NCBI GenBank assembly: GCA_025267735.1
Contig: CM046294.1
Coordinates: 36,115,222-36,179,221 of the forward strand
Direction: 5' to 3'
Length of the DNA: 64,000 bases
Origin: Mactra quadrangularis
Lineage: Eukaryota; Mollusca; Bivalvia; Venerida; Mactridae
This document shows positions 6,099 through 50,607 of this stretch, piece by piece. The translations under genes were made by a program, and so were the position numbers. How positions within the stretch are numbered: position 1 is the stretch's first letter; each line of letters begins with the position of its first letter. The notes beneath the pieces were generated by a model that did no database searches, had not been told where the DNA came from, and was given only the letters and a program-made list of their open reading frames with translations.

Positions 6099-6391
6099 TA
6101 TCCCGGGTCGGTAGCGCAGTAACTTTTGATAGCGCGACTGGGTTTCGAATCTTGTGTTCCGAAGGAGGTACGGGTTCGAATCCCACACGGGAAGGTTATA
6201 CATTTCTATGAAATTTTGACAATGATGACAATTTTTTCGTTAATAAGGTATATGGAGAAGTTTCCAGCCTTATTAAAGGTAGGTGGGTACTGATTAAAGA
6301 CAATGGTCCAGGAAAGCTAGGTTAGGTGCGCTGGACGCTGTAAAATAACCTGTAAATTGTGTTGACACGGCGTTAAACCCAGTATAAATAA
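6099..6391 (+). mobile_element. tRNA-derived SINE, family A, full length
   Basis: A non-autonomous retroposon with a tRNA-like head, about 290 bp long. The head starts at CCCGGGTCGGTAGCGCAGT (A-box region) and carries a B box, GGGTTCGAATCCC, ahead of an ACGGGAAGG closing stem. The body includes TGGAGAAGTTTCC and GTCCAGGAAAGC. It ends with GACGCTGT...ACGGCGTTAAACCC and a short AT-rich tail. A perfect 13-bp target-site duplication, TTACAATGTAATA, flanks it at 6086-6098 and 6392-6404, which shows retroposition and a fairly recent age. SINEs are copied by an unrelated LINE's reverse transcriptase, so no protein is encoded. Short reading frames across it are chance. Confidence 0.92.
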
Positions 6392-6676
6392 TTACAATGT
6401 AATACAATTGTTCATCAATAATTAATAGCATGTGCATGTGAGACGTTATGTATTAACCTTAATAAAATACAATGCCTCATTGTGTGGTAATTCAATAAAT
6501 ATATGTCAATATCAATATATTACATTCATTAAACAAAAGAAAGATAAAATATTAATGCTCATAATGTGTTTGTTTTGTTTAACAAGACCAAATATCGATG
6601 TTTGAATGAATTTAAATTAGGACAACGGTATAATATATTTGCCGGGGATGAATGTATGGTAAACGCTTTATATAAC

Positions 6677-7130
6677 TAAGGGGGATAAAAACGGTGACAT
6701 AAGTATCATAAGGGATGTACTATTTCTTTCTAAAGGGAGATAATTTGGTGTGACATTTATCTAAGGGGAGATAATTCGAGTATTACGTATTTCTCAAGTA
6801 CATTTTTTGTTGGCTTATTTTCTTAAGGAAAGTTACATGTATTTGCTTGACTTATTTGATAAAGGGAACACATTTTGTTAGATTCTATTCTCAGATGAAA
6901 GTAATTTCATATTACAATTCTCAAGATAGTTGTTTAGCATTACTTTTTTAAATGGTATAATTTATAAGGGAAGTAATCTGGTATAGCTCATTTCTCAAGG
7001 GAGGCAAATCGGTATGACATATAGTTCAAAGGAGATAATAATTATTTTCTACTCAAGGGAGGTAATTAGGCAAGACATTATTTCTAATGAGAATAAATCT
7101 TATAAAACTTATTGCTAAAGAAAGTAAATG
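6677..7130 (+). repeat. Decayed minisatellite, period 30-31 bp
   Basis: The motif TCAAGGGAGGTAATTNGG or a variant recurs about fifteen times. Anchor positions include 6677, 6708, 6731, 6762, 6793, 6823, 6859, 6891, 6921, 6965, 6995, 7026, 7053, 7085 and 7116; most steps are 30-32 bp, with a few indels. A TATGACAT-like string often sits between anchors. The units are strongly diverged, so this is an old array. Confidence 0.75.
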
Positions 7131-8713
7131 ATGGACGTACTTTGATATGAAAATAACGTGGGCGTAATATTTTGTACATTGACCGAGTATTTTTGCTAGA
7201 TAATAAAATTGAAACAGTATCTCTAAATACAAATACAAAACTAACATATGTTACATCGTAGTTGTTTATATCACGTATATCCACTTACAATATTTCTTTG
7301 AGAATTTTGATTTGATTTATTTTAATTAAAATGCTTTCAATATAATATCATATCAAATGATGAACTCAGCTATTTCAGTAAATGATAAGAAAATAACAAT
7401 TATTCCACAAATAATTGTTTCCTGCAAGTTTGTCTATTAATAATATTTAGATTAAATCACACCAATTCAATGCTGAACATATTATAAAATGATATTCATC
7501 TTCATTTTCCATTGGATTGCAAATTCAGGATTGTATGAAATTACTTTTGTGTGTGTCAGATTTTTTAATTATCTTTTATTATTATGTGATGACATTGGAT
7601 TTGCATTTTGTTTATAACCGTACCGCTACCTGAATGGCTATTGTTCGGTTATCAGTTCAAAGTTGGATTGTATCATAGTTAAACGATTATGGCAATTTAA
7701 ACATTGATAACATTTTAGCAAAATGATATTATTATTTTCATTATTATTTTATAGTATTAATATTATTCTTGAAATCTATACTATAAATCTTTTACAAACA
7801 TAATGCTACATAAAATTACCATTGCCCTCGATTGTGAGCACTCGTGATGAAATTCTTACGCGCATCAATGCTGGTGCTTATATTTTATTATTCTATAAAA
7901 TGTAGAAAACTGTAAGTTATTTCTTGCATACATGATAAAATGTAGTTGATAAAACCATGTCTTCTAATCACATAACTTACCAAGACTTTATACAATATTA
8001 ACAGACATCCCATTTATTATTCTACGATATAAACAATAACAATAATTTACGGGATGCAACAATAACAGTCAATATAAATCATTTTGTTAAGTGTATTCGT
8101 GGAGAGTTTATTTATTCATTATATACCTTAAACACTTAGCATTCCAAAATAGTCTGTACAATACATGGCTTAGTTTTATCAAAGCGGCTGTTTTACTTTT
8201 CATAACAATCTTACTGTTGAATTCAGGCCGACCGATCATTTCAGTTTACAGCGCGTCTTGCTACGAACACATGGTTTGTTGGTTAGATTTCTAAACGGGA
8301 ACTATGAGGAATTACCTCCCTGACAATGAAATTAAATGACCGTGGTTACAGAACAAACTTGTAAAATTGGCTTTTCATGTACACGGAAGTAGACATTAAA
8401 CCGCACTTTAATTTGTTCTAAGACTTTAAATATCTGTTGCATGAAAGTATTCATATTCAAATTAATTCTCTTGACAATATTGTTGATATCAAAACAATGT
8501 TTTAGAACTCATAGACCACATGACGACATGGCTTTGCATACAGAACATGTGAATACTTTGACACTTAAAAGAAACAACGGAACAACCTGATATGCAAACA
8601 TATTGATTGTGCACGTACATACCTCATAACAAACGTTAACAATGTTATTGTGTAATACCAGCCTAGCATACAAATAGCTAATCCGAAAAGCTAATTTGTC
8701 TCATGCAATATTT
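7131..8713. other. AT-rich DNA without a recognisable gene
   Basis: Simple ATT/ATTATT-rich runs (around 7720-7790) and chance open frames only. Nothing with splice signals or a recognisable protein motif was seen. Confidence 0.55.
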
Positions 8714-8945
8714 CACACAGTTGTTGACATTTAAATGTCACTTTTATACTCTGCCTTTTATTGGAGCTGTGATATTACAATATGTTTCTCGAAATGTTCT
8801 TTGTGAACTTAAAGTATTTAATGTTTTGTTCAATTTTATTCGCAATCAACTTTTCCTTGAACTTGTGAGATAACTTCTATCCATTTAGTGTCGTGATTGC
8901 ATCATGAACATCACAATAAAGTTCAAATTACTGTGATGTTATAAT
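8714..8945 (+). repeat. Interspersed repeat, copy 1 of a pair
   Basis: Matches 22593-22800 in the same orientation. Shared strings in the same order are ACAGTTGTTGACATTTAAAT, CTTTTATTG, CTGTG-TATTA-AATAT, TCGAAATGTTC, CTTGAACTT and TCCATTTA. The family was not recognised, and neither copy contains a convincing protein or defined ends. Confidence 0.65.
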
Positions 8946-9034
8946 AAACAGCTGTATTTTATATTGTGTTCAATTCCAATACTTGAAGAAAAAGGCATAT
9001 GAAATGTTTAATATATAGTAAAGTATTGCAATGA

Positions 9035-9247
9035 ACTAAGGTTAGCATATATGACTTCGAATCCGGAGATCGCGGGTTTGAGCCTGGTCGCGGTAGGTCA
9101 TACCCTATACATGAATTGTCGGCCTCGTTGTACGGTAAGTTATAACTGGTGATAGAAAAGTGTCCAGGAAACCTATAGTAGGATGAGCTGACCGTCGTAT
9201 ATATAACCTAAATATGTGTTGACTACGACGTTAAAACCAATTAAACT
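9035..9247 (+). mobile_element. tRNA-derived SINE, family B, 5' truncated
   Basis: The copy starts within the tRNA-like head (GGTTAGCATATATGACTTCG), keeps the B-box region (CGCGGGTTTGAGCCTGG), then runs through GGTAGGTCATACC and GTGATAGAAAAGTGTCCAGG to the shared 3' domain GACCGTCGTA...TACGACGTTAAAACC. The body matches the fuller family-B copy at 47842-48064 closely. The A-box end is missing or decayed. No clear target-site duplication was found. Confidence 0.85.
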
Positions 9248-11791
9248 TACGAAGTCTAATCAAACTGCTTGCTTATCTACGCAGATTTAGCATTGCCAAA
9301 CTTATTTAATTTATTACGAAAATGAATTTTTATTATAACATTCATTTTTAATTAAATTTACTCAATAAAGATTTATGTGAAATAAACCCTATTTCAATTT
9401 TATCGCTTTGTTGTAATATGAACGTATGATTGAGAAACATAAGTATGTCCTAGTCTATGATATGAAATGTTATGCAATGGCAACGGCAATTTCTTGTAGC
9501 TTTTTAAGTATTGAATGTCACCAATATTAAACATTTGATGTTACACTGAGGCTACTATAATCATGTCCTTAGACAAGTGGCTGATTGAATAACAACGCAA
9601 TCCTTTGTGTCCAAAGACATGATACTTTATCTGTCCAAGTATAGCTAATTTTTCAGATTGGTGAACGGATTATAGATATATAGACATTGAAGGTCCGATG
9701 TAATGCTAATCAGAAGTTCGATACATGTAACAATAAAAATTCCATCATTAAATATCTGAAACGAGTATTTAACTATAATTGCGAGGTTTGATAAATCAAT
9801 AATATTCATTAAATAGAATATTCTTTGACAGCTCAATAATTTAATTGCAAAAGAATGTGAACTAAATTAATGCGGAATTTACTTCACTTAATCTCAAGCT
9901 TAGTTGTATTTAGCATGAATCAAATGTTTACATGAAACACCTTGGTGTTTCATCCAATCGTCATCCTGTATGATATATTGCTTTGTTCTAGTCAGATAAA
10001 CTCTATGGACAATTTTTATGCCTTATTTGACCCTGCTAAGTCTGGATAGTCTTATAAATAATAAGTTAAATGTAAACAAACTCCACAAATTAATCAACTT
10101 CATGTTCAAAATATTTTATAAGCTCTTTTATACTGTTTTACGTTCGTGTACCGTTCGTCAGAATATTTTTTGGAACAAAACACCCGGGATATGTAGACGA
10201 AGGTTACTACTAAAAATTGATTTGAGATTAGATGCTGAGCAAACTATTATTAACATTCCCCAGGATTTGAAAAAAAAACACATCTATATAATTTAAGATA
10301 AAATAGTGCGTTTGTTGTCTATATGTAATTTTTGAGTGGTAAAACCTGCTTCGATAAGATTAAGCTATTATTCCAACAACTAAATTTTATCAAAATAGTC
10401 ATTATCGAAGGACATGTATCAGAGTTATAACTCACATTGTCAAATTATGATAAATTACACGACAAAATACTTTTATAGATGCTAAAGAGTATTATTCATT
10501 TTGTAGAATTTTCACAGCCACAATAAGTGCAATTTGGGCATAATTATGAATGGTATGAATAGTTGCGATTATATAAATGCACTAATGAATGTACTTACTA
10601 GTCATATTAATGAAATTCTAAATGGATGCTATAATACAAAATATAGGATAGAATCATAATTGTCAGACTTATTAGCAAGAGCATGGAAAGTCGTATTCAT
10701 TTTCTGTCTCAATTATACGCCATATTTAACACAATCAAATGGAAATTATAGTGGCATACAATTGTTGGTAATAATTGACTGTAAATATTTCGCGAATTTG
10801 ACCACGTAGTCCAATTTGATTCTCATTTGAGTTGCAATCCTCTTATGGCTCTGAACCGTTTGGAATAATCAAACAGTAGTATCTTATTGGAAATTCGTTA
10901 TTATTAATGTGAACATCGTGTATAGCGTGCTGTGAGCAATTCCTAAAACAAGGTAAGTAACTAAGTTGTTGCTGTATTTTCTGCTTTGTAATGTTATTTT
11001 CAATTAAAATCTTGCACCGGTTTATATTCTGTATTTCTAATGATGTTATTTATTTTTTTAGCACATTACCTAAATGAATAAGGTTCATTATATCCAAATG
11101 AAATCAACTAGTCTTAATGTGTGGACCATCTGCGATAATGTTTAAGGAAGCAATTCCATTATTAAAACTAATTATCACACAGATTTTTATCTCTTAGTGC
11201 ATTCGTGCCGTGGATAACAGTACAGTTGCTACTACCTATGATCAACGGTCAGTTTGACCAAATTCTAACGTCTTTATAAATGCTTATTTAATCTTATCGG
11301 CATATTACGTAGACTTATCCCTGTCACACGAACTAAATCAGTTCTAACCGACTTTTCATTTAAAATTTGCATTTAGGATTGTCAGACTATATTGCATGTG
11401 GGAAAACTATATCTCTATGAATCCTTCGAGTTAATGTACTGGCGATTTCTCACATTTTCCTGGAAAGCAATTAAATTGTTACATTTTCCTAAGATAAAAC
11501 CATACAACTAAACATGCGTCATTAGATATCTAAATACACGCGCTTTATTATCGTTTATTTGTAAAATCAATATCAATCATTAAATAGAGTAGTTCAAACA
11601 ATAAACGTTAATTAATGGGGATAATGGATAATGATAGAGGCAGGCGATACAGACTACATTGTGAATATAAAACTCTTTGTCGTTGTTGCTGGTAAGTCAG
11701 AACCTATTTTGGAATGATCAAATGGTCTTTTCAGATTGAAAATTTAAAACAGACCTATGTAAGCTTTGTTTCAATTCTTTTTCTTTTTAAT
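9248..11791. other. AT-rich DNA with old, diverged repeat pieces
   Basis: No gene was recognised. Stretches around 10690-10800 and 11700-11780 share short ordered strings with 12700-13130. The segment 11545-11640 matches 25735-25835 (shared AAAATCAATATCA-TCATTA and AGTAGTT-AAAC). These look like remnants of an old repeat family. Confidence 0.45.
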
Positions 11792-12066
11792 TGAGTTTAA
11801 CGCCGTGTCTACTCAATTTAGGTAATTAAACGGCGTCCAGCGCACCTAACATAGCTTTCCTGGACCCTTGTCTATAACCAGTACTCACCTACCCTTCCAC
11901 AAGGCCCGAAACTTCTCCATATATCATATTAATGGAGGAAAATTGACATTATAGTCTAATTTTCATGAAAGGGTATAACCTCCCCGGGTGGGATTCGAAC
12001 CTGTACACCCTTCGGGACACGAGATTACCAATCCCGACCCGCTACCAACTGTGCCACCGACTCGGG
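11792..12066 (-). mobile_element. tRNA-derived SINE, family A, minus strand
   Basis: Read on the minus strand, it begins CCCGAGTCGGTGGCACAG, has the tRNA-like head with a B-box region near 11990-12000, the family-A body (GGAGAAGTTTCGGGCC, GTCCAGGAAAGC), and ends GACGCCGT...ACGGCGTTAAAC at the low-coordinate side. It is full length compared with the copy at 36536-36822. The flanks do not show a clean duplication, so it may be older than the other family-A copies. Confidence 0.9.
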
Positions 12067-15000
12067 TTTTACAATTATTCATAGTTTGCCTAAATAAATA
12101 ACATTACTTATTTTCTTGTGGCTACATCGTGTTCTTTCAATTTAAATATCAAAGACAAACCATGCATGTAATCGTCAACCGATTACATCAATACACGTTA
12201 TGTAACGCAAAACTATATTTTTGAACTTTAAACATAATAATTTTGTCTCTTTATTTAATTCAGTTTCATATTTTACACAATTTAATATATAAACTGAGCT
12301 TGTCAATGACATGGAGTAAACAAGAGTTTGCATTGTTATTCTAATTAATAATAAAAGTCGCCACAACTATACATAGACTTGCATTTTTCAGTTGTTTTAA
12401 CTATATCTTAATTGTTCGTCAATATTGATTCGTCTGTAGAATAGTGCGTCTTGATTTGCTTACTTATACTTGTATAACTCAAGTTTGCACCATATTAATG
12501 GAGTAGCTAATAGCTGTTCGATTTCAATGGTTACCAAATAGTTCTGAAATTGCAATTAACAACTTTAATTAATTATATGACTTTATAAATAGTTCCATAC
12601 AATGTATATTCATTCAAATAATTGAGAAAACTATTTCTTATATCAATGGGATTTTCAACATCAGTCACAAAGTTACTAATACAGCTAGCTCCACATAATC
12701 GTATTCATTCTCGGCATAGTACATCATTAACACTATCGGATAACATACTTTGCTGTGAAGTAGAACTGTGAACGTGATAATTGACTGTAGATAATTTGTG
12801 AGTTGATTATTTGCAGTGACCTATTTATATGAAATTTACATAACATTTGTACTTTTGTTATCAATGTGAGTTACCATAATTATTTCTCACCTGGCTCTAT
12901 GACTGCACAGACGATATAAACGAGTTGAAAATTAATTCTCGAACAGTGGTATTCATTCCTGAAACACAAATAGTGCATACGTTACACTACTAAATATTAT
13001 TATGGTTATTTTTTTATATATTGGATTTGATAAATGTGATAATTGATAGCAGATAATTTGTGTATCTATCTATAGTACACTTATATGATAGTTTTTACAT
13101 TTGTTATGACTGTTATTAATGTACCTTTGTGTTTTATTACTTTCCTTACTTTTGGTTCGCACGATTAAAAACTACATTTATGGGATTAGCATAAGATTAG
13201 TATTTATTAAGTGAAACTGAGTTGGGAAAATAGTTTAAAAGGTTATTAGTTTATAACTTGATATGGTATATTTTTAAAATTATAATTTGACTTATCTTGT
13301 TTGTTTGTCTTGTAATGTATTAACAATTTAGATTTATATCATCTACATATCTCTGTATTAACTGATGTTTTGTGAAGATATAGCTATAGGTACTTTTCAT
13401 CTTGATAGGAAACATTGCAGCTTGAAAAATATTTCATTTTGCATCGAAAATTGAAGGATATATTTATTAATATATATTAATAGTTTTATACTGAAAATAT
13501 TGCTATGCGTCTGAGGGTAGTAAGTGAAACTTCATATATATACAATGTGAAAGAATATTGCAGAGCATCAGTTAATAATACGAATATGTTTTGCAACGGT
13601 TCTTCAGAAAGATAATTAAATTCGTGTATTGTATATAAGTTATGTTTCCAGATATTTATGAGGTTTAACATTCTGAATATAATGTGTGTAATTGAATTCA
13701 AGTAATTAGCAGCTGGATATAAAATTAATTTCAATTTACATGTAACTTATTCCGATTCTGCGAGACAAAAAGCCGTATGACTTGTATTTGCATGTCTTAC
13801 TCTGCACCGTCATTCTTGCATGCAAAGTACGTCATTACTCCCCACTCAAAATTAAGAAATAAACGACCAGTCATCATTGTGGCATTGCACTTACCTGAGT
13901 TAATTCCGATTATTAAAGTTCTTACTGAACAAAAATCATATTCATGTACATTGTTAATGATACCTGATATTGTTTTTTTGAGGTAATTATGTTTCATTCA
14001 GTGTACTAACTCATTCTTCAAAGGAATAATTACACCTTCTAATGAAGCAGATGTTTCTTTCATCTAGTATCAAATAACAGTCCTGTTAGATTTTTATTTG
14101 TGTACATTGAAATAGAAAACCTTATACAAGTATTAGCGAGTCTTGTGAACAGAGTTATTTGAGCAATGTCAGAATCGGATAGTTTAATGATACCTTGCGC
14201 CAGTACGGAATGTGGGAAGTACATACCAATTGGTGCAAATTGCTTTATCAATATTTCTAAACGACTTTCCAACGCATACGTTGCATTTTAAAGCCTGTAT
14301 TTGTCTTATTTGATTGAAACTCTATACATATTATTGTCGGACATAAAACAAGCTTTCCTGTCAAGTTTCCAAGAAACAACAGTCATTATTTGCATAAAGC
14401 AAATTAATTGAAATCTGCGAAAAGGTGCGCTGACAGATCTATATATTCCATTGCAGTAAAATGTGCATATTTTATCTGCGAAGGCTCAATTTGCATTCCA
14501 TTTGTTTAGCTGTCAAAATAAGTGTTACATTAAATGTTCTCAGCTGTCAAAATATATTTGCCTTTGCGACTTTCAAAGAGTATGCAAACGAAATTAACAA
14601 AACAGTCTGAAAACCAAATTGCATTATTGAATTTTCTTTAGAAGAGACTTACATTTCAATAAATGCAATAACTATTACATTTTATGAATAATGCAACTAG
14701 AACGTTCGCGATTGAATATTTATAATACAGAATTGTAATACATTTTGTAATTTGATTATTGTAACAGTACTGACGGCATGTAATTATTTGGAACTGCACA
14801 CATTTCAACTCAATGAACAAATTTAAATTTTAATTGAAATAATAACGTTTGCCTTTTTTTTTCAATGTGTTAAGATAAACAAACATACTGAACGCACACT
14901 CTTTCTTGAAATGATCAACGTAATATTTAGGTGCATTTTTTCGAACTTTTTGTTGTTCTGTTTTGAAATACGAAGGTAAATGATTTAAACACCTTTCTTG

Positions 15001-15099
15001 CAGTAAAAAATGAATACGTACTATAGTAAAACAATTATGGAATAGATATTTATTATATTAATTTTCGTTTATATTTTGTCATAAATTATAATATATATA
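12067..15099. other. AT-rich DNA with decayed repeats, no gene recognised
   Basis: The segments 12775-12870 and 13035-13130 resemble each other (GATAATTG-CTG-AGATAATTTGTG, then ACATTTGT and TTATGA-TG), about 260 bp apart. The segment 14505-14565 resembles 24125-24185, with a repeated CTGTCAAA motif and a similar downstream order. The rest is AT-rich sequence with chance frames. Confidence 0.45.
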
Positions 15100-15366
15100 T
15101 ATATTTATTGAATCCTCCATATTGGAGATAATAACATATTTACAAGGTTATGCATATGTATAATATATGTACATTATATAAAACAATTATATTAAATAGA
15201 ATCCATGTAGATGTATGAATAAACAGGTATGAAAATATACTATAATAGCATACTATTACATAATAGATGAAACCTATATAACAACATTACATGTACATGT
15301 ACTTATACAGAATTTAGTATTCTATAGTATTATTTTATGTATGACCATACCTCACCACATATTACT

Positions 15367-17970: not shown

Positions 17971-18351
17971 ATATTGTAACGTGTCCGCTGGGCGCACGGC
18001 CGTCAAGCCGGCGCTCGCTTACGTGTTTTAAGTCGATGCTCGTCTTAACACCGACTGACTAGGTGTCCGAGCTAGCTGCAGAGACGGAGACGAGACAATC
18101 CTAGGACACTGACTCGTGTCCCGGGGTTAACAACGATGTGAAATATATATAGATGGATTTTTCTCAAGCTATTTGCTTATATGATTAGAAACTAACTAAA
18201 ATAAAGCGTATAGTAATATGTACAGTCACAAAGCATAAAACAAAAATACACACTCCTGAGACAATACCTCAGAATGAAAAACCAATACAAACAACAAAAG
18301 TTATAGACACGATAGAATAAAACTACAGTATAGAATAATATGTACAAACTT

Positions 18352-18900
18352 AATGTTCCAGACACAGTGTGGAGCAGAGACAAAAACGTTAAAACTATAA
18401 CTCCGAACACAACCTCGGATTATAAAACTTAAGTTGAAACCAACAGACCCCGAGTCCGGACTGCAATGTCTCAGGAACAACTCGGAGCTAAAGCAAAAAC
18501 CAAAACTAAAACTAAAGCTTCGAACTCAACCTCGGGTTATAAAACGTATATTGAAACAGACGGACCCCGAGTCCGGACAAATCAATGTTCCAGACGCAAC
18601 TCGGGTCTAAAGCAAAAGCAAAACCAAAACTTCGAACACAACATCGGGTTATACTTTGCTTGAAACCACATACCCCGAGCCGGACGAAGCGATGTTCCGG
18701 GCACTACTCGGAGCAAAAGCAAAGCAGAAACCAATCCCGATACACTATCTCGGGTCATAGACTATTGCTTGGAACCAACAGACCAGTAGTCCAAACACTC
18801 CTATACCACAAGGACGACCCGGAGCAGAAACAAAACCTCGATCGCTGGAGCTTCAACAGTCTATTTTCGAAGACAACCTCGGGAACGATAACAAGAGATA
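18352..18900 (+). repeat. Tandem array within the insertion, unit 106-119 bp
   Basis: Units start at about 18352, 18465, 18584, 18691 and 18797. Each runs AATGTTCCAGACRCA, CTCGGAGCAAAAGC, a CAAAACYAAAAC A-rich core, TTCGAACACAACCTCGGGTT, TTGAAACCAACAGACC and CCGAGTCCGGAC, with variation. Few stop codons in one plus frame give a 217-codon open frame at 18585-19238, but it follows the repeat and has no recognised domain. Confidence 0.8.
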
Positions 18901-18920
18901 CCCCAAGATCTAGCACGATT

Positions 18921-19225
18921 TACCCCGCAGGTTCTGCCACCAAAGTCGGCGTGCAAAGACGCGTCTTTACCTTAGAGAAACCTACTAATCGCAATGATGC
19001 TCAGTTGTCAGTACAGCAGAAAACTCATGCCCAGCTTACCAAGCATCGGCGACTATACCTCGGACACGTTAACAAGGGAACACCCAGGAACCATGATTTA
19101 CCCCGCAGGTTCTACCACGAACGTCAACGAGCAAGAAGGTGCTTCCACATCGAACAACATACTAATCGCAATGATGCTCTGTTGTATGAACAGTTGAAGC
19201 ACACACCTTGTTCCAGGGCGTCTAC
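18921..19225 (+). repeat. Direct duplication within the insertion, period about 177 bp
   Basis: TACCCCGCAGGTTCT occurs at 18921 and 19099, and ACTAATCGCAATGATGCTC at 18984 and 19161, so the two halves are offset by 177-178 bp. Intervening sequence is similar but diverged. Together with the 110-bp array this gives the insertion a largely repetitive interior. Confidence 0.75.
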
Positions 19226-19732
19226 AATTAAACAGTAGACTCACGACTATCTTCCACTCCAACCAACACCACGAGTAGTCACCAACTTTCTGCTACCAAA
19301 TGAAGTCAACAAGCATTTATATACTATTGGACGAGTCAATTTTACAGAACAGTCCATTTCCAACCCGGAAGGTAAAACGAGTTAATTTTTGAAAAGGGAG
19401 GTAATTTAAATATTTTCCCAAGCTGACCTAACTCAATAGTATAAGTAGATTTAAATTGATAAAACAAAGGTATGGATTTCCCTTCAAGTTCTAAATAAAT
19501 AGGTAAAAAGGCTTAATACTACATAGTTTTAGACAATCAAAACGTATCACAATTCTAACATGACAGAAAAAGAAGAAAATTCACCAAAACATTTAATTTT
19601 AATAAAGGGAGATAATTTGTCAAAACCATTCAACAAAGAAATTCTACAAAGGCGATCTTGCTTACAAAGAGAAAATGCTCTTAACAAAGTCGCTGAACAA
19701 AACGACAATACCGGTTCGTTTCACTATATTGT

Positions 19733-19853: not shown

Positions 19854-20151
19854 TTATTTATGTTTATTTATTTATTGGATTTAACGCCGTATCAACACAT
19901 TTTAGGTCATTTCACGGCGTCCAGCGCACCTAACCTAGCTTTCCTGGACCTTTGTCTATAACCAGTACTCACCTACCCTTCCACAAGGCCGGAAACTTCT
20001 CCATATTATCTAATTAATGGAGGAAAATTGACATTATTGTCTAATTTTCATGGAAGGGTATAACCTCCCCGGATGGATTCGAACCCGCACCCCCTCGGGC
20101 ACGAGTATTCAAATCCCGGCGCGCTACCAACTGTGCTATCGACCCGGGTTA
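19854..20151 (-). mobile_element. tRNA-derived SINE, family A, inserted in the LINE endonuclease
   Basis: Read on the minus strand, it starts CCCGGGTCGATAGCACAG, has the tRNA-like head with a B-box region, the family-A body and the GACGCCGT...ACGGCGTTAAAT 3' domain, then a (TAAA)n-like tail. A perfect 14-bp target duplication, AACAATGTTTTATC, lies at 19840-19853 and 20152-20165. Removing the SINE and one copy rejoins the LINE frame between DKTL and LEFFN, so this copy is younger than the LINE. Confidence 0.94.
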
Positions 20152-20671
20152 AACAATGTTTTATCACGCTGACATAAATCAAATTTATAAATGTTTGCGT
20201 TAAAGTCGCCCATTAAAACAAAAATACCGTTATCATGATATGTAAAATACAAGTCATAGAGTTTATCAATATAGTCCTGGTATTTCTCTACACTGTGATT
20301 TATACATGGTAAATAGACTTGAATAATATAAACATACATATTTTTATCAATCTGCAATTGTATACCAACAATACGATCATCACATATATCTAAAGGTACA
20401 ATGCGGCTGTCAAGATATTTTTTCCACATCAAAGCTACGCCCCCTTTACCAACATGGTGCCTTCTGACATTTAATTCGTTATCACAGACAACATGACAGT
20501 TATAATTAGTATTGACTGAATGTAAAAAGTACGTATTATGTGGGAACAACCAGTGCTCCGAGATCCCAACAATGTCAACAGAACCCTCTTCTTAAATATC
20601 ACTTAAACTAGATACATGGACATAATACCAAACACACTCCATGACATAATATTTAAAGATAAGTCAGCCAT
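20152..20671 (-). pseudogene. LINE ORF2 start and N-terminal endonuclease part
   Basis: An ATG at 20671-20669 (minus) starts MADLSLNIMSWSV, the usual opening of a LINE endonuclease (L-N-I-x-S-W-N-V type). Further along are GISEHWL (the catalytic-glutamate region of these endonucleases), GKGGVALMWKKYL, and MGDFNAN, the catalytic D-x-N motif. A frameshift or stop lies near 20590, between the start and the SEHWL segment. The domain then continues beyond the SINE into 19733-19853 and ends at SRHRPI around 17900. Confidence 0.85.
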
Positions 20672-20724
20672 TATAAATGATAATAAAACATGCATAAAAA
20701 ATCATAAACATGTATATATAGTAG

Positions 20725-20807: not shown

Positions 20808-20809
20808 TA

Positions 20810-25351: not shown

Positions 25352-25485
25352 ATGCGTTTAACGCCGTGTCAACACAATTTAGGTAATTGTTCGGCGTCCA
25401 GCGCACCTAATATAGCTTTTCTGGACCCTTGTCTTCAACCAGTACTCACCCACCCTTCCACAAGGGCCTGGAAACTTCTCCCGGG
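25352..25485 (-). mobile_element. SINE family A with an internal deletion removing the head
   Basis: On the minus strand the 3' domain (GACGCCG...ACGGCGTTAAAC) and the body as far as GGAGAAGTTTCC are present. Then the sequence jumps directly to CCCGGG, the very 5' end of the family. The tRNA-like head and adjacent body (about 150 bp) are missing. The junction lies in a shared CC, which fits a microhomology deletion rather than 5' truncation at insertion. Confidence 0.85.
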
Positions 25486-36535: not shown

Positions 36536-36822
36536 ATCCGGGTCGATAGCGCAGTTGGTAGCGCGCCGGAATTTGGAATCTCGTGCCCGAGGGAGTGCGG
36601 GTTCGAAACCCATCCGGGGGGGGGTTATACCCTTCTATGAAAATTTTACAATAATGTCGATTTTCCTCCATTAATTAGATAACATGGAGAAGTTTCCGGC
36701 CTTGTTGAAGGGTAGGTGAGTACTGGTTACAGACAATGGTCCAGGAAAACATTAGGTTAGGTGCGCTGGACGCCGTAAATGACCTAATTTGTGTTGACTA
36801 GGCGTTAAATCTAGTAAAACAA
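36536..36822 (+). mobile_element. tRNA-derived SINE, family A, full length
   Basis: The head starts ATCCGGGTCGATAGCGCAG, with TTGGTAGCGCGCC (A-box region), a B box GGGTTCGAAACCC and a GGGGGGG run at the head-body junction. The body has TGGAGAAGTTTCCGGCC and GTCCAGGAAAAC, and the 3' domain is GACGCCGT...TAGGCGTTAAAT. A perfect 13-bp target duplication ACAATTCCGTAAG lies at 36523-36535 and 36823-36835. The 3' stem in this copy carries one substitution (TAGGCG instead of ACGGCG), so it is slightly weakened. Confidence 0.94.
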
Positions 36823-37164
36823 ACAATTCCGTAAGCTGCAATTATATTTGTAACGAATAAAGATATTTCAGGGCAAATGTCACACATACATTGTGTAACA
36901 GGCTTGTGTAACAGTATTTAGTCTATAGATTCTATCTATATCACAGCTGCTTACATATTCTTATTAACTATTGACATACTAAAACGAACTAAAACTTTTC
37001 CGAAAAAAAAATGTATATGATTATTGTTAAATCATAATTTGATATTGCATTTTGTCTAAGTAGAACAAATTTGGAGATTGTGGAGATATTTCCGTCATCA
37101 GTTCACCAAATATTAATGTACTTATACAGACTATTCTCTAGCTAATATCATTGTACAAGAGGTA

Positions 37165-40254: not shown

Positions 40255-41563
40255 TACAATGAAGTGACACATCGTAATATTGTGATAATTGTGATGATGG
40301 TCAAGGTTTATTGATAACATTGTCACGTATATTGATGAAACATCAACAACGTCTGACAGGTTACTCATTTGTGTATCTTATCTTACGATCTGACACTTCT
40401 AATGCAGGGAAATCATTACATTGTCTACAGTTACGGAAATTTCCCGTAACGTAATGCATTAAGTACATATCCAGACAGATTGGCTAGAATCCTATCTCAT
40501 TTGTATTTTGTGTAATTACCTCTCTCCTTAATATAAGAGATTACAGACAGAGTGTTTGTCTTTCATTTTAAAGCATTGGAAATGTCAATTCACACGATGT
40601 AGTCCTTCACTAAATGGATTTACAATCTTCAAAAAGGATAAACAGTCTTCAAAACCAGTCAAAACCAACTGTGTTGAGTTTTAGCCAGTAATAGCCCACT
40701 ATACGGACAGCAATGGGCACAAGATGGCTATAACATTAAACATATAAAACATAGACACTTGTTTTATGCATGTATTCGCAATAAGTACAGTCTGCATGCC
40801 TATTTGAATCTATTAAATAAACTGCAACGATAGTATTTCACAGATTCACAGATCCATTTTTCCGATGACTACTGTTCATTAAAAAACGAAGTTTTTTTTG
40901 CAGTGAGTAGACTTTCAAAAGTAATCACAATTGAAATTTGTGTATATAGTTACATTCTACTTTTCTCTTGTATACGTGAATGTTGTAACAAACGTGTCCA
41001 TTCTGTACACAAACGGTCTGACTGACCTTTGTACGGAGACGCCGCGCATCACGGGTAAAACTGTTTATTTACCTGAAAGCACGTGGCAATGTTTACATTC
41101 TAACAATTCCCCCCCTTCAAGTAAACTGAACAAATAGAGTATGAATTTTGTGTCTACTCAATAGAATTTGACTATCCAACCAACTCTCCTCATCAAATTA
41201 AACTTTTTAACTGGAAGTTAAACCTTCATCATAACGTGTTTACATCTGTCATTCTTTACACAATAATTTGAAATCGAAAGTAGAGTACACGGTTTAACTA
41301 TGTACCTATACCTACAGAGGTTTAAAAGTACTTAGTATATATAGATTAATATTCCTGTAGCTATAAGCGGTCGTTATTTTACATTTGGCGAAAAAATGAC
41401 AACAAAGTAATTCACAATAACGATTTTCTCTGATATTTCTTGTATTCATACGCGGAACTACTTGACGCGGAAGTAAATTGCGGATGATTGGTTGGTCGTT
41501 ATGCGTCTTAGTATAGAGGTGATATCTTCACCGTCTATTTATAGAATGCAAACGTGTCATATA

Positions 41564-42346
41564 TAGTGCTGCAACGATTCACCAGAAAGTCGATTCGATG
41601 CGATTCGATACTTTTTTTTTCGATTCGATTTTTTTCGATTCGATTCTTTTATGAATACAATTTACTACAAATATGCATTTATACACATATTTGAGCTTAA
41701 AACTAAATGATATTATTTAAATAAAAGTGTTACTAAAATTGGATAACACGAAACTCGAAAATCTGATATTTTTTTTATATTTGCTTTATTCAAGTACGAA
41801 ATGGATTGGGTACGAATGTAAAGGTCGCGAAAATGTATTATCAATGTAATATCGACTTAAAAAGTAAAGACAGCATGTATCATAAATTGTAGAAAGATGC
41901 AGTTCTTGGTATACTATCGTACATATTAGTTAAACATACACTGTGCATGCAAAACTATTTAAATTTGAATAAACTAACAACAAAACTTGGCTTGCTCATG
42001 CGGAGCCTAAAATCTTCCAGATTGTCAGAACAGGTAAAATTCAATCACACCCACCCAATTGGCGGAGGATCGGGGCATATACTGTAGAATGTATATTTGG
42101 AACAGAGTTTCTAATCATGCTACATAAAATCGCAATAGAAATGTAACAGAAATGTAACAAAATGAAACACAGTTTCACTGTCAACGTATACTTTGACTTT
42201 TAGGCGCGCCTTTGCTTTTATCGTTGTAACTTATGTAGACACTTAAAAGTCAGTATCGAATCGAAACTCGCGGGTCCCGAATCGAAATCGAATCGGCACC
42301 CTTGCAATCGAGTTTCGATGTATCGAATCGAATCGTTGCAGCCCTA
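41564..42346. mobile_element. Non-autonomous hAT-type DNA transposon, 783 bp
   Basis: The terminal inverted repeats are TAGTGCTGCAACGATTC and, inverted from the right end, TAGGGCTGCAACGATTC (one mismatch in 17). They are flanked by a perfect 8-bp target duplication GTCATATA at 41556-41563 and 42347-42354. An 8-bp duplication and a YAGNGCTGCAA-type end are hallmarks of hAT elements. Subterminal CGATTCGAT repeats are dense at both ends, a typical place for transposase binding. No transposase frame is present, so movement would need an enzyme supplied elsewhere. Confidence 0.93.
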
Positions 42347-42354
42347 GTCATATA

Positions 42355-44868
42355 AAGTATAACCAAAGTTCTTTGGATGAAAGCGTTATCACCTTAAGAA
42401 TTGCAATAGAGTTTGCTGTTAAAACAATAAACCTCTTAGTGTGTATACTATATTTCAACCTACCCTAGAAATAAGTCAGTAGCACAATATGTCCTTACTA
42501 ATTTTGAACATACATTACATTGAGGAATGAGTTAAACAGTTACTTCCTCAATCGTAAATCATGGATATAAAAGTCTGAAAAGGAGTATCTGACAGTGTTA
42601 GAATTAAACCAGTGAGCCGTGACCGTGTCCACCGAAATCCCCTTCGGTCCAGTTACGTTTAGAAAGTGAGTAGTCCGATGATCCTTCAACTTTTTACAGC
42701 CACAATTATCCTAGTTTAATACAAACATTATATGTTGTTTCATTGTTAATTTAATTTAGAATATATTATTCTAAATTGTTTGAATGGACAGCATATTTTA
42801 ACATCATTAATATATTTTTGGTCAAGTAACCTTTCATTCGACACAGTAAAAGCTCATTTTACTGGACCGATTGTCCAATGCTGATAGAAGTTCGTGAAGA
42901 CTGACCCAGTGAACGATTACATACATTATACGAATATCAACCTATGTCTAACATATTTACTACACTCTTTCTGGCTCGAAAGCTTACCTACAGTTTTGTT
43001 ATCAATGATTTTGCGGAAGTATAAACTGGTGTAAATGATGATAAAAAACGAAAGGAGATTATGAGGGAAACAGAAAACACAATTGTTGGAATCGATTGTT
43101 TGCTAATTAGGTAATATGAGCTTTCTTGGTAAAATCGATATATTTTAATTAGACGTTTGGTATTATTTATCAGTAAGATATCGTATAAGGACCGGCAAGT
43201 TTTGCTTAATAACTTTATAAATGCAAATATTATGTTTCATGTTTAAGGTTAGTAGTTACATCAGTAAGGATTTTTTTTCTTATTATTATATTTTTAACTT
43301 GATTTTTCTTGATATTGTGGATTTTGAGTTTGTGGTATAATGTTGAAATTTAAGAAACTTTTTTTCGTAATTTATATTTTTTTCAAACGCTGGCTCATTT
43401 TTTTCAAACAGCATGTTATGTTCCAAATGTCATTTTTACATGCTAATATTTTAAAATGTACGAAATGCTACGCTTCAAAGTTCTAGTTTAAATAAATGTT
43501 TATATACGCAATAACTACTTTATTTCAATAATGATAAGTTCTTTTGCATTTACAATAAAATCCTATACAAAGAAGCTCTTAATCTATTAAGTATATAATT
43601 TGTTCGTTTATATCTTGGCTCCATTTCGCAATGGAATTTGCACTTTACCTGACATTGTCAGAACATTGAACATGGGTCGATATATAAATTATTTATGTCT
43701 AGCCTAAATAATTAAATAATGTATTTATTATTTAAACGAGGTCGTAACGCTTGAACTTCACACGGTGAAAATATCTCATTAAAGAATGGTATCAGTCGAT
43801 CGATCGTCGACAAATTCAGTGGGTTGTAATTAGTATGTTCAGAAAAAATATCCACTTTCAAATATTTGCCTTACATTTTAAATGTTTTACATAGAATGAT
43901 AATTCAAAATATAAGGCAAACAGTTGTTTTAAAGTATAATCTCTCCGACTGTCCTGCACCTAATTACAGCGTGTGTTCGCATTTACGGTATATAACGCCA
44001 TATAGATAATTTCCTTTATAGATTCCTTTTTGAGATTTCCTTAATGAGAGTGCATACTCTTTCATGAAGTGTACTTCGTCCAAACTTGTTGTTATTTCAT
44101 TATGTTAATATGTAACTTGTTCACGATAAGTATTATCAATATTGTCTTATACAATGAATATTCCCGTCTCATCCATGGTTTTTCATTTATTTGTTCGGAA
44201 AGCACTTCATTTTGGTAAATGGTATAACCATATAGGATAGTTTACTAGTATAGTGGTTTACATGTAAAAGTTTGAAAATTTCATTTTAATTATGAATAGT
44301 TGCACAAATAAAAAATATAGCGTCTGCAATAGACACAAGCTTTATGTTTGTTATCAAAGCAGACTTATGGTTAATTCCACCAGAAGTTTGTTTGTACGTG
44401 AAAAGTAATTCAAGAAAAATAAGGAAGTTATTATAGCTTAATTAGATGTAATTAGCAATTTATGTTGGTACTTGTGATTTGCCTATAAAACAATTAACTT
44501 TATTTAATCCTAAATGGTTTTAGATAATTTTTGTCTAACATTATAAAATAACCAATTATGTTTTACGACTAAGTCTAGACTAATTTCTAAACAAGAAAAA
44601 AACATTGCTGTAACAACAAGAATGTGTTAAAACAAGAATAAAACGAAATGCGAACAATGACGTTGCACTTGACGATGTAATCTACTACATCAACTATAAG
44701 TGGATACCTTGTGGTATAAACAAGCCAATAGGCAATGTGTCAGATTGACTAATTTGTTACTAATGTTAAAATGGAACATTTGGATACGATGCAAGTTGAA
44801 ATAGCTAAACATCAAGACATTGCTATAGTTTAGATTACAATCGAATCATGTCTAAGTGTCTTTGCTGT
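42355..44868. other. AT-rich DNA without a recognisable gene
   Basis: A short perfect hairpin CCGAA-ATCCCC-TTCGG lies near 42640, and a run of overlapping ATCGATCG occurs near 43798. I can attach no function to either. No exon or element was recognised. Confidence 0.5.
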
Positions 44869-44879
44869 TATACAGACTT

Positions 44880-45181
44880 AAATAAGCCGCCCGGCTGGCT
44901 CAGTTAGTAGCAAGCAAGTCTACTGATCGAGGGGTCGTGGTTCGATTCTCGGGCGGGGCATACTTTCGTGGAGCTTATACTTATACTTTCCCACTAATGA
45001 TTCTTGATTATGTAGGGCAGTTGTCAGTCACTGACGAAAGTATGCGCATAGTAGTTGTTTAACAGCTAAATCCAGAGATTTAGCCTTTCCAAAAGGAATA
45101 AGTAGGTTAATTGAGCACCGTTATATGACCTATACAATGAATTGCTACACCGTTAAACCCAACAAAAAGTAATCAAACAAA
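44880..45181 (+). mobile_element. tRNA-derived SINE, family C
   Basis: The tRNA-like head starts GCCGCCCGGCTGGCTCAGTT (A box) and has a B-box region GTGGTTCGATTCTC before CGGGCGGGGC. The body carries an inverted pair GCATACTTTCGT (44958-44969) and ACGAAAGTATGC (45034-45045), and a hairpin GCTAAATC-CAGA-GATTTAGC (45065-45084). The tail is CCCAACAAAAAG with CAAA-type runs. A perfect 11-bp target duplication TATACAGACTT lies at 44869-44879 and 45182-45192. The shared 3'-domain stem is decayed in this copy (CACCGT with ACACCG). Confidence 0.93.
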
Positions 45182-45192
45182 TATACAGACTT

Positions 45193-47602
45193 GAAAACCA
45201 GTAATGTTAATGATAATGCCGAATTGTGGAGATTTTTCAACATTATGACTTATTTACATATTGTAGGTGGATCAAACAGTTTATTCTGTAATATATATAC
45301 AAACTAGAGATGTTTGTGTTTCTTAACATTTATCTATTTATTATACTTCAAAAGAGTAAGAAACTGTATAAGTTATTTCTTAGCTGATTTGTTGATACTT
45401 TGGTTACCATCCAAGTATTTCCACAGTGTTTTCCTTTTCATTCTTTTTTTCATTTCATGTTTTTCTATCTTGATATATTGGCGAACACTATAAATTAAAG
45501 TAAATAATATCAAACGATTATTTTTCCTGGTAGTGTAATTATCATAACTTAGGAATGTTGTAATACCAACTCAGTGTTTTGGCCGAATTTATATCTATCA
45601 TTATTATGATAGTACAACTGTTGTAGCAGATTATGTTATGTTGAAATTTGTCTTTCTTGCACAAGTTTTCAAATGTGTTGTGGCTTATTCTGTTTTCTTT
45701 GCAGTGGATTTTGGCTATCATATGATACATTTTTGTCACACATGGAAATGTATGCACTCACTTTATTGATCTACTCATTTTAATTCACTACACACACACG
45801 CTTGTAAACTGCATTTGGAATTAGATGTTTTTTTCTAAATATGTTAAAAGTGCATAGAGCTTTGGTAAGGCGAAGTCCAACATTTTGTAAAGAAAAATTA
45901 TTTTTGTTTGTTCCAATAGTGTTATCATAGTAAAGAATAAATATACGCTAATATCATTGTATCCAGATAGTTTGTCTGCACCGTCTACTGATATATCGTT
46001 TAATATACAAGTTAACAAAGTGTTACTGCATATCATAGTCAAGTATAACATATACCTTCTGTCAAGAAGTTCTACAATTTCCTCTTATTAAGAATTAATA
46101 TCCATCCTGTGGCTGTCTGGAATAAATGAGTCTACTTTTCATCACGAGAGACATGAGTGTACGTTTAGAAGCAAACCGTATAATTTGAAGTACTTTGTCC
46201 ATGAACTGTGTAGTTTTTTAGAAGTTAAAATATCATACAGCAGCTATACTGACTGCTAATATACGCTCAACTGAGTGATGCCTCAGTTAGATAGTTAGAC
46301 AACACTGATAATTGCTATATCATAACTCATGTCTTTTTTGCCTCATTAGTATACAATATACAGTATATCAGACACAAGCCGTTCATAACAATAACATAAT
46401 CTACTGGATAAGAAAATGTATCAAAAATGCATTTACATTTTGATACTTGTATTTGATAGTGCCATGAAACATTTCTTTGACAAATAAATGTTGATGATCA
46501 CTTATTATACATGACGTACCTGTCATTTTATCATACTTAGATTTTATACGTGTTAAATAGTTTCATCATGACTTTGCTCTTTTAGCCCGTCATGAGTAAT
46601 GTGGATTAGTATATATTTTTTTAATTTTCGGAAGGTACTATATCCACGGTTTTTTGACAAAGATGTATAACATGCATGTTTTACAAGGAATAAAACATCC
46701 GTTATCATTAATCATTCTATTATCATTGGTATTTGAATAAGATATGAATCTGGTCTATCAATTACAACGACTGGTTTTTTGATAATTAGTTTGTCTTTCA
46801 TATTAGTTAAATGGAATTTTCCTAATATGTTTTAAGATTTGGACAAACCATAAATAATGGCGGAACAAACGTAAACATTTCTCATAATTATATGCTTGAA
46901 ACTAATCATTAATTATTTGATTTACTGACAAATATTTTACTTGTATTAATCTCGTTATTGATAAAAAGCTTTTGGTCAAAATGACTTTAATAAGACCTGA
47001 AATCATGGTTTTATTTTATCAAAACACATCAGCTACATTGCACCAACTGCCATGTTTATTAATGCTAGCAAATTTAGACAAAGGTATTCGGATTTAATTT
47101 AGTGAAAAAATTGAAATTCTAATTCAATGTTATTTAAGTACTCGAATACCCTTAAATTGCAATACTTTGTTGCGTTTGGTGGTGAATCCAATTTCCCTCT
47201 TGAGGATATTTAAATTGCCGAATGAGTGGGTTGTATCTTTTTGCCGTCGGCTTATAATGAGTTTTATTGGATTTTAATCGACTTTGGTAATTGTATTTGG
47301 AAGTAATGACTTTGGAAAATGTTGTTAGTGGTTTGTGTTGTAAACAGTCTGATACATTTTTCTGAATTTATTTAAACCATATGCTGTTCATTTCTTTAAA
47401 ATAAGTTTCTTTTTCTTTTGTCATTTTGTTGTGTGACATATATATTAAAGTGTATGGTCGATCTAGCAAACTTTGATAATCATCGAATTTATTCTGTCAA
47501 ACACATAATAACTTAATGTGCTGACTTAAAATTATAAGATAATAAGTGAACTTAATGCAGTTTTTTTCGTCGAAAAATCCGGCTAATAGTTTGGCGAAAC
47601 AC
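45193..47602. other. AT-rich DNA without a recognisable gene
   Basis: The segment 46100-46300 is a diverged repeat also seen at 37795-37990. Nothing else could be supported. Confidence 0.5.
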
Positions 47603-47636
47603 GGGCGGGCGGGTAAACGGGGGCGGGGTAGGCGGG
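47603..47636 (+). other. G-rich patch with quadruplex-forming pattern
   Basis: Five G-runs of three or more (GGG, GGG, GGG, GGGGG, GGGG) separated by one to five bases, then GG and GGG, lie on the plus strand within a very AT-rich region. This satisfies the usual G3+N1-7 quadruplex pattern. Short open frames cross it on both strands but have no recognisable protein content. Confidence 0.75.
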
Positions 47637-47841
47637 CGTTCTGTGTCGTTAACAATTGCGTTGAAGTTTATTGTCAGATCTTTATGAAACTTCATACTCG
47701 TACAATGATAACATACTATGTGATCAACGGAATAAGAAAGTAACCACAACATTACCTGCCTTTATTATGGATTATTGCTCTTTGTATTTTTGCGTTAAAG
47801 ATTTTAAATACGGCTTTAATGTGGTTTCCACATTACATTTC

Positions 47842-48064
47842 GAGCCGCGGTCGTGGCAAAGTGGTTGGCATGTCTGGCTTCGAATACGAAAATCGCGGGT
47901 TCAAGTCCGGTCACGGTAGGTCATACCGTATACATGAGTTGTCGGCCTCGTGGTAGGGTAAGTTAGTACTGGTGATAGAAAAGTGTCTAGGAAACATATA
48001 GTAGGGAGAGCTGGCCGTCGTATGTATGACCTAAATAAGTCTTGAATACGACGGTAAAAAAACC
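47842..48064 (+). mobile_element. tRNA-derived SINE, family B, full length
   Basis: The head starts GAGCCGCGGTCGTGGCAAAG (A-box region GTGGCAAAGTGG) with a B box CGGGTTCAAGTCCGG. The body has GGTAGGTCATACC and GTGATAGAAAAGTGTC. The 3' domain CCGTCGTA...TACGACGG forms a perfect eight-pair stem. A perfect 11-bp target duplication CATTACATTTC lies at 47831-47841 and 48065-48075. It is the most complete family-B copy here. Confidence 0.93.
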
Positions 48065-48075
48065 CATTACATTTC

Positions 48076-50280
48076 TTGTTTTCTCGTGGTTTGCTGATTA
48101 CAGAAACATTAACGTATTATTATTTAGGCATATTACATGTACAGGTTGCAATATTATAAATAATAAATTCATAACCTGCTCTAAGAAATTGTAAATGCAT
48201 TTTATCACGCTGTGTAACGCTAAGCGTCGAAGTCAAGACCATTCCATTAGCTGAAAAGCTTTATCATATCTTAGGGGATACATGTTATCATTTAATATTA
48301 GGCTTGGTATGATAAATCAATGCTATCTACGATTTTCTTTCAATGGGTATACAATATTAGACTTGATAGCGTACTACATACGTTCGTGTTTGTTCATCAT
48401 ATTTTCACTTACAAAACCAGTCATAGCATGACCTGCTTTAATGAATTTTAGATCATTTCGTGAGTTTCGTTTTGAACAGGCAATAGTTGCATGTCGTGCT
48501 GTCTGCGAAAAGCACAGTGACAAATCACACGTAGTCATTTCTTGAAAGGTTTGATATAGACATGTCCTTTCCAAGACATTGTGAAATAGTTCCGTGGTTA
48601 TCGTGAAGATTTAAATGAGATCGATTAAATAAACACTCATGGTGGAAAAATACGTTCATTTGAACTGAAATGCGCTTTCAAGGAAACAAAAAGACAAAAA
48701 CCAACTGCATAGAATCTTGAATTGACGTTTTTGTCTGTTTGCATTGTAATGTAAATATAGATAAGCTTTAGGTCATTGTTCAAGATTTCCTGCCGACAGT
48801 AAATTCACATAGTTTAAAGAAAACTTCATGTGATAGTCTGCGACCACGAATTTGAGATATGTTCTTAAAACGTCGTTGTTGAATTTATTGATGTTCATCT
48901 TAACTTGCTTTGTGAGGAATATTTCTCATAAAGCGACTATTTAACTGTCACAAAACACATGCCAACAGTTTTGTACGTCTCTCTAGTTGCGTGGGGAGAT
49001 AAAACAAGTGTTATTCTTAGGACTTTGTATATGTACTTGAAATAGTACTACTGAATGAAAGAGCTTGTCAAAACGAAATGTGTTACCGAAGCCTAAATCG
49101 TTATATTTGCTCAAAGTTTTGGTAACCTGGTCACCTATATTGATGAGCTGTCTTATTTTGACGAGTCACAATCAATGTGTCTCATTTATCTATTTATGCA
49201 AAATACACCAACACAATATATACTATTACTTTATGGTGATTACATAGCCAGACAGTGTGCATTAATTTCACGATTGTAATTGTATTGGGTAATTACTTCT
49301 TTTATGTTAGAGTGTCATTGTCGCCGCTTTTTTACGATTGATTTTGTAAGCAAAGTTAGATACGTATGCATGGTATATGATATAATATAAACCATATTAC
49401 TGCATGTTGAATTATTTCTATGGTTTCCTTTTTATATTTCAATGTTTTATATTTATGCTTTTCAACGACGTATTGACCGCATATAGACCTAGTTTGTGTA
49501 TACAGTAGAATTATTCTTAGTACATGTATATTGTTCAAAATAGTTAGTAAAGCAAGCCTAGATATCACCTAACTTCAATACATATAGATCAAAGAGGGCC
49601 CCATGTGTAGATTAAAAAAGGCAAGGTTCAAAGTATCATCTAAATTAAGAATAATCGGAACAGCATGAACTACTGTTTAAGAAATTAGTCTTAACTAAAC
49701 TAAACCGCTAATATATCCACAGTTGTTGCTTGTACGGCATAGTCAGGGGTTAATTACGTCTTAACGAATCATTAGAACTCAAAGTACATTGAAATATGAA
49801 GTAAACATCTAGACATCACTCGAGGTAAACCAAATGTAATCATCCCTGATAAAGACTGTGAGATAAGGTAAAATATTGGGAATATATGTAAGTTTACTTC
49901 AGTGTTATGAAATTCAACCCTCTAATTGACGATAAAAAAAATTCAATAGTTTTCACTGATCGATTTTTAATCATCAGCAATTGCTGTATCTGATTCATGT
50001 TTTCTTTGAAGTAGATCAATATATGCATCGTACTAAACGTTTTTTGTTTTTGTTTTATTACGGTAACATTGAGGAGTTAAATTACTTTTTTATCGTTTAC
50101 CTTATCAATGTTTACGCGTGCAAAGTTAATTATTAGTTTGAAATAAAGTTAAACATATCAATTTCAACAATGCGTACCTTTTGAAAAAAGACGATTTCAA
50201 TGTGTTCACTAAATTATGTCGCTGTTGCTAATACGTTTTCAGATTCCTTTTTCTAGTATCAGTGTTAGGAACAGGCTTGG
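48076..50280. other. AT-rich DNA without a recognisable gene
   Basis: Only chance frames (up to 70 codons) were seen; no element boundaries or splice-flanked exon could be supported. Confidence 0.5.
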
Positions 50281-50291
50281 AAATGTAAATA

Positions 50292-50607
50292 AGCCGACCG
50301 GCTAGCTCAGTTGGTAGCGCGCAAGTCTACTGATCGAGGGGTCGTGGGTTCGATTCCCGGGCGGGGCATACTTTCGTGGAGCTTGGTCATGAAATTATTT
50401 CTACGGCTATTCTCCCTCTTACCAATGATTTTTAATTCTGTAGGACAGTTGTCAGTACGAAAGTATGCGCTTAGTAGTTGGTTAACAGCTAAATCCAGAG
50501 ATTTAGCCTTTCCAGGAGAAGTGAGTAGCTTGACTGACCGCCGTTATATGACCTAAAGAATGTGTTGCTACGGCGTAAACCCAACAAAAACAAACAAAAC
50601 AAACAAA
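50292..50607 (+). mobile_element. tRNA-derived SINE, family C, best-preserved copy
   Basis: The head GCCGACCGGCTAGCTCAGTT with GGTAGCGCGCAAGTC (A box) and GTGGGTTCGATTCCC (B box) is well preserved. It resembles a tRNA cloverleaf of about 75 nt. The body has the inverted pair GCATACTTTCGT (50366-50377) / ACGAAAGTATGC (50457-50468) and the hairpin GCTAAATC-CAGA-GATTTAGC (50488-50507). The 3' domain CGCCGT...ACGGCG pairs perfectly. The tail is (CAAA)n-like. A perfect 11-bp target duplication AAATGTAAATA lies at 50281-50291 and 50608-50618. Confidence 0.95.

Follow-up and report, generated by a model that had tools for sequence, protein, structure and literature searches.

A very abundant 3' tail with hairpin-forming potential is shared by three SINE families in the clam Mactra quadrangularis

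Three SINE families of the bivalve Mactra quadrangularis, referred to here as A, B, and C, end in a genuine and very abundant shared tail that contains a hairpin, an arrangement of an ordinary, known kind. The tail was studied in the window, that is, the whole 64,000-nucleotide stretch of contig CM046294.1 that was analysed, and in the complete 979-Mb assembly (447 contigs). The shared 3' domain is probably the recruitment tail of stringent-type SINEs. At least three SINE families carry a common 3' stem-loop, with TTAAA and an A-rich run behind it, and, according to the mechanism that we favour, a LINE-encoded protein would, most likely, bind the stem-loop and start target-primed reverse transcription there. 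The tail would be common to families with unrelated bodies because each of them derived its 3' end from one and the same LINE, or from a relative of it, or else received the tail from another SINE.

All nine copies listed by the first-pass annotation (five of A, two of B, and two of C) are present where it had placed them. Family A occupies 6099..6390 on the forward strand, with arms at approx. 6336-6341 and 6367-6372 that include one G-U pair and precede TTAAAC, and with a 13-bp TSD, TTACAATGTAATA. On the reverse strand it is found at 11792..12066, with a perfect stem within 11796-11835; at 19854..20152, with a perfect stem within 19880-19919 and a 14-bp TSD, GATAAAACATTGTT; and at 25352..25480, where the 5' part is missing or degraded and the stem (approx. 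25356-25396) has one mismatch. The 19854 copy interrupts a LINE, being inserted in its endonuclease ORF; this LINE matches Pfam Exo_endo_phos and RVT_1. The fifth A copy, at 36536..36825 on the forward strand, has arms at 36771-36776 and 36799-36804 with two mismatches and a 13-bp TSD, ACAATTCCGTAAG. Both B copies are on the forward strand and have CGTCGT/ACGACG arms: one at 9031..9240 (the 9035 copy), with the stem within 9193-9235, and the other at 47842..48065, with arms at 48016-48021 and 48048-48053, 10 pairs in the predicted fold, and an 11-bp TSD, CATTACATTTC. The C copies, also forward, are located at 44885..45180 (the 44880 copy; arms at 45116-45121 and 45147-45152, three mismatches, and a 14-bp TSD with one mismatch) and at 50292..50610 (a perfect stem at 50539-50575 and an 11-bp TSD, AAATGTAAATA). 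In addition, a diverged tenth tail is present on the reverse strand at 59429..59471, with CGCCGT/ACGGCG and TTAAAC, a loop unlike those of A-C, and no recognisable SINE body upstream. It was recovered at E = 1e-5 in an iterated profile search whose profile was probably built with the tenth tail in it.

TSDs of 11-14 bp thus flank six of the nine copies, five of them exactly and the 44880 copy with one mismatch; a search around the 11792, 25352, and 9035 copies gave nothing convincing. As six copies have TSDs and terminate shortly after the common motif, they are real SINEs: short elements whose motif is dispersed in more than 10,000 copies. The TSDs also show that each element stops directly downstream of TTAAA and a brief run rich in A, and the shared domain is therefore a tail. 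This position speaks against the idea that it is a superfamily-defining domain, as the annotation had suggested, since it occupies the very 3' end, the place of a LINE-derived tail, and not the centre. For the same reason it is quite improbable that the shared part is a conserved structured domain with a role of its own (stability of the Pol III RNA, a host function, or module exchange), comparable to V, Deu, Meta, and CORE, even though such domains are known in bivalves, whose SINE families have been catalogued as V, Meta, MIR, Deu, and Core (PMC10294476). A further point in favour of such a domain is that family C carries a separate central hairpin, GCTAAATCCAGAGATTTAGC, present in 18 of 18 C copies at no more than five edits and exact in five. 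The A and B bodies may be Meta-like and the C body V-like.

The common ending described previously, i.e., CGCCGT, a loop, TGTGTTG, ACGGCG, and TTAAAC, is borne out, with loops that measure 22-26 nt. The six-base stem is perfect in five of the nine copies (11792, 19854, 9035, 47842, and 50292). The mismatch counts given above agree with the statement that most A and B copies and the best C copy can pair and that those at 36536 and 44880 are weakened. A hairpin pattern (arms of six bases, four or more of them G/C, a loop of 20-28, and then TTAA, TAAA, or NTAA) matches 10 times at seven places in the window; in 60 dinucleotide shuffles, matches average 0.28 and number 2 at most. Genome-wide, the loop motif GACCTAAAN{0,12}TGTGTTG has 14,362 exact matches (7143 + 7219), and its reversed control has 33 (17 + 16). 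When GCTG and TTAA anchors are added to the loop pattern and the arms are left free, 11,769 matches (5865 + 5904) are obtained versus 42 (24 + 18) for the control. With G-U allowed, the full set of six pairs survives in 20 of 28 copies of A, in 11 of 17 of B, and in only 5 of 15 of C, the counts being restricted to copies with both arms located (17 of 19 for B and 15 of 18 for C). The stem-loop sits at the 3' end of the element, and what sequence and predicted folds establish is its potential to pair: in whole-element folding ensembles of seven copies, the stem reaches a probability of approx. 0.6 or more in only three and approx. 0.3 in a fourth; it is close to 0 in the other three, including the 9035 copy, whose arms are perfect.

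The relationships among the families were assessed by local alignment of heads, bodies, and tails against 500 shuffles each. All three tails are related to one another; those of A and C, for instance, align with a score of 57 (shuffles, 11.7 +/- 2.2). The annotation had described the families as having different heads and bodies, which holds for the body of C, unrelated to that of A (score 18; shuffles, 19.2 +/- 3.1) or B (score 17; shuffles, 18.3 +/- 3.2), but not for the bodies of A and B, which are homologous over approx. 78 nt (score 77; shuffles, 18.8 +/- 3.2). The heads of A and C are also alike (score 53; shuffles, 15.7 +/- 3.0), for which a common tRNA origin could be the reason. Motifs resembling box A and box B are visible in the heads by eye. 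ARAGORN reports no tRNA in the window or in the three family consensuses, and Rfam gives no tRNA match at E<=1 in three copies and no relevant match otherwise. The first description of the families as SINEs, apparently tRNA-like, with a common 3' hairpin that is able to pair is supported.

The annotation had further proposed that the stem is under selection, given that both arms change together in family B. The paired change is confirmed: in a set of 19 distinct B copies, to which 13 additional B-like stretches had contributed (one of these being a duplicate), T-A is present in 16 of the 17 copies with both arms located and C-A in one. Because T-A is fixed across the family, it is counted as one founding event. 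Covariation was examined in a 264-kb sample consisting of the window plus 20 10-kb stretches, which had been picked for their exact loop matches on a single contig (C1). A profile search of this sample gave 61 matches; 49 near-complete domains (44 distinct) were aligned and 12 were dropped. Across the distinct rows, 44 in number, pairing holds for 90.5% of the cells in the six-pair stem, and sliding the 3' partner by 1-3 columns reduces this value to 16-65%. One column pair is changed on both sides, with C-G in 33 rows and T-A in six, all of the latter belonging to family B. None of the other five stem pairs, which have one-sided changes or broken cells only, is changed on both sides in the 49 aligned copies. 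The count of column pairs changed on both sides does not exceed that of shuffles (452 of 500 reach the observed value), whereas the covariation score does (0 of 500), and so does the tally of single cells in which both partners are altered (2 of 500); shared descent alone can be sufficient to raise this score and this cell count.

These results bear on a rival account, according to which descent and the exchange of tails between SINEs are all that is required and the hairpin arose incidentally from an ancestral sequence rich in GC, with the stem unselected. One paired change alone is fixed in a family, as this account would have it, and two random substitutions among the twelve arm positions fall on complementary partners with P = 0.031-0.045, which is not negligible for a feature chosen after looking. 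However, the B change, the only one by which the arms of the family consensuses differ, is exactly complementary and does not lie at a CpG. Moreover, the consensus arms of A and C are identical despite their differing loops, and an inner helix, TGACC with G.GTTG, formed from two conserved loop motifs, is paired in 93.1% of cells (one change on both sides, in two rows). We regard this account as unlikely, albeit less so than that of a domain with its own role.

Changes in single copies were examined in strings from an anchored genome scan, of which 99 were kept and 96 were readable in register (84 A and 12 B). Among the 84 A strings, the arms are exact in 51 and all six pairs are kept in 63. 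Four cells, at pairs 1, 2, 4, and 5, are changed on both sides, and all four are Watson-Crick, which again argues against an unselected stem; shuffles give a mean of 0.83, and 14 of 2000 reach four. The whole stem is intact in three of these four copies, while the fourth is otherwise broken. Two of the four are changes from C-G to T-A at CpG sites and could have arisen by methylation decay on both strands. In general, of the 54 changes seen in the arms of A strings, 33 are C>T or G>A (at least one string with an odd ending is misread in the tally), and decay of this sort can yield T-A for C-G without selection, in line with the rival account. Two B copies have T-A for C-G at pair 1 too, and the 12 B strings contain one cell changed on both sides, no more than shuffles (972 of 2000). 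The pair adjoining the stem is A.C in 41, G.T in 30, G.C in 5, and A.T in 3 of 82 A strings (at least one string being misread in this tally as well), which hints at a linked subfamily change that gained a G-U, again as one event. The single-copy changes are a hint of further compensation, short of proof, as the shuffles ignore old copies decayed throughout. The covariation expected by the annotation is consequently present in part: the B pair is family-wide but reflects a single founding event, no second pair emerges from the 49 aligned copies, and the 84 A strings contribute four single-copy changes. With one founding event and a few single-copy changes, support for the stem is suggestive rather than decisive; the B change and the four complementary A changes are hints of selection, and of these the B change alone is family-wide.

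Recognition by a partner LINE, which the annotation had also put forward, is the best inference for the function of the tail, although none of the 11 LINE 3' ends examined carries it. The LINE in the window ends, by eye, in AATAAA and a TA run, without the tail. From 8,532 RVT_1 candidates in the genome, 150 were scored, and 10 LINE-like groups were selected by match length; for each, 2.2 kb downstream was fetched, starting approx. 500 nt past the RT match. The tail is found in sense in 0 of these 10 stretches (0 of 11 with the window LINE), some of which possibly do not extend to the element ends; antisense matches occur in two, L070 (E = 1.5e-17) and L077 (E = 1e-4). In 280 kb, a tblastn search with 118 RT relatives detected no LINE beyond the window, and 10 ORFs in the fetched stretches, some of them upstream of tails, are without an RT domain in Pfam; one of these ORFs, 230 nt upstream of a tail (L028), has no Pfam match. 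By eye, eight of the nine tails that end in TTAAATAAATAAA follow an A-like body, and the ninth (L061) lacks a SINE body. A genome scan for the canonical stem in which three SINE-like upstream letters were disallowed gave 119 matches (control, 0); among the first 100 listed, many have the C loop, and the set therefore includes truncated or altered C copies. Three such tails on another contig (C5; 27895748, 27947571, and 29870793) have a different loop, nearly identical in all three, and the same upstream letters. Since no LINE with the tail was found, its LINE origin is proposed from its position and from precedent. It is highly unlikely that the tail is instead a SINE-only recruitment module, which the LINEs here have lost or never had, passed between unrelated SINEs by template switching, and read by a LINE with a different 3' end.

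The RT of the window LINE has 118 relatives, eight of which are assigned to an organism: five bivalve records (Mya, Mactra, Dreissena (two), and Mytilus) and three bacterial MAG records. Two of the latter are Candidatus Thiodiazotropha, which are clam symbionts, and the relatives thus point to a bivalve as the probable host. In GTDB contigs, the tail pattern has 0 matches, and none of 23 stretches matching RT patterns was confirmed. In IMG/VR, the first tail pattern gave nine matches, which were taken as chance because CGCCGT is absent from the preceding 60 nt in seven of the nine and lies only 9 nt before the 3' arm in the other two (L004 and L006); GACCTAAA occurs in 0 of the 9. The other two tail patterns gave one match and none.

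With regard to previous work, molluscan SINEs were reportedly described by Matetovici in 2016 as having a 40-bp V subdomain folded into a stem-loop, and the Meta domain is said to have been treated by Nishihara in the same year. A full-text literature search with the tail strings, together with titles and the beginnings of abstracts, found no description of the tail among the papers listed; key molluscan SINE papers fall outside this scope, and prior publication is thus possible. The clam tail leaves existing knowledge of SINE tails unchanged. It does, however, offer a clean experiment of nature on the recognition of client RNAs by a LINE, in which three SINE families with two unrelated bodies share one hairpin, one family has different stem letters, and more than 10,000 copies occur in a single genome.

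Known systems provide close parallels. The tail of UnaL2 has a GGAUA loop. Like the clam tail, those of UnaL2, ZfL2-1, and ZfL2-2 (L2 clade) consist of a 3' stem-loop followed by a short repeat-like run, with TSDs; the clam arms and loop appear to differ from those of UnaL2, and the clam tail was found without a partner LINE. The proteins of zebrafish ZfL2 (L2 clade) bind the tail stem-loop via the region between the endonuclease and RT domains (PMC4176376). The tails of plant L1s and SINEs (Ohshima; PMC3747384) share a common hairpin with compensatory changes; they resemble the clam tail in the 3' position of the hairpin, the compensatory stem changes, and the conserved bases beside the stem and in the loop. 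The plant tail is carried by both LINE and SINE, whereas the clam tail is seen on SINEs only and has one fixed compensatory event. Finally, the molluscan Meta, V (RUDI), Deu, and MESC SINEs are like families A, B, and C in length (approx. 200-300 bp) and in having a bivalve host, but their names refer to central domains, whereas the part that A, B, and C have in common is the tail.

The 3' arm of the tail stem followed by TTAAAC is shared by at least four families, because, in addition to families A, B, and C, another repeat ends in TTTAGTTGACACGGCGTTAAACACAATAAAA or in a sequence close to it. This repeat, which differs in its upstream part, was found in two copies on the minus strand of fetched stretches of the host genome (L024:5582-5611 and L025 near 7233). 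Among the matches listed, tails with the canonical stem also occur at positions 27895748, 27947571, and 29870793 of contig C5 of the host assembly (G000); their loops are almost the same and lack GACCTAAA, and their upstream letters are identical. These three tails are candidates for a further family or for the partner LINE, the autonomous element presumed to copy the SINEs via the tail.

Family A bodies carry a second inverted repeat, GTCCAG...CTGGAC, directly upstream of the tail stem (e.g., 36536-36814 in the window), which is perfect in 20 of the 29 copies listed (one copy being entered twice). The two bases adjoining the tail stem co-vary, with A.C present in 41/82 strings and G.T in 30/82, and this alternative marks two family A subfamilies. 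The family C consensus contains a central 8-bp hairpin, GCTAAATC-CAGA-GATTTAGC, in the body of the element (e.g., 50292-50582); it was found in all 18 copies at ≤5 edits and is exact in five of them.

A stretch of the window LINE at 18350-19240, situated between its endonuclease and RT parts, contains imperfect repeats (CCGAGTTG..., GACTCGGGGT...) and, on the plus strand, an open frame of 227 aa that has no Pfam match. In another fetched host stretch, an open frame (L039:3-416) encodes a Forkhead domain (E = 4e-10) and is probably a host gene exon.

On contig C2 of G000, six tail hairpins form a tandem run (12652920-12653395; canonical-stem pattern, among the matches listed), spaced 68-145 bp from one hairpin start to the next. 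Their loops are C-type, and the matched letters are almost the same in all six hairpins. The run is a small satellite-like array built from SINE tails.
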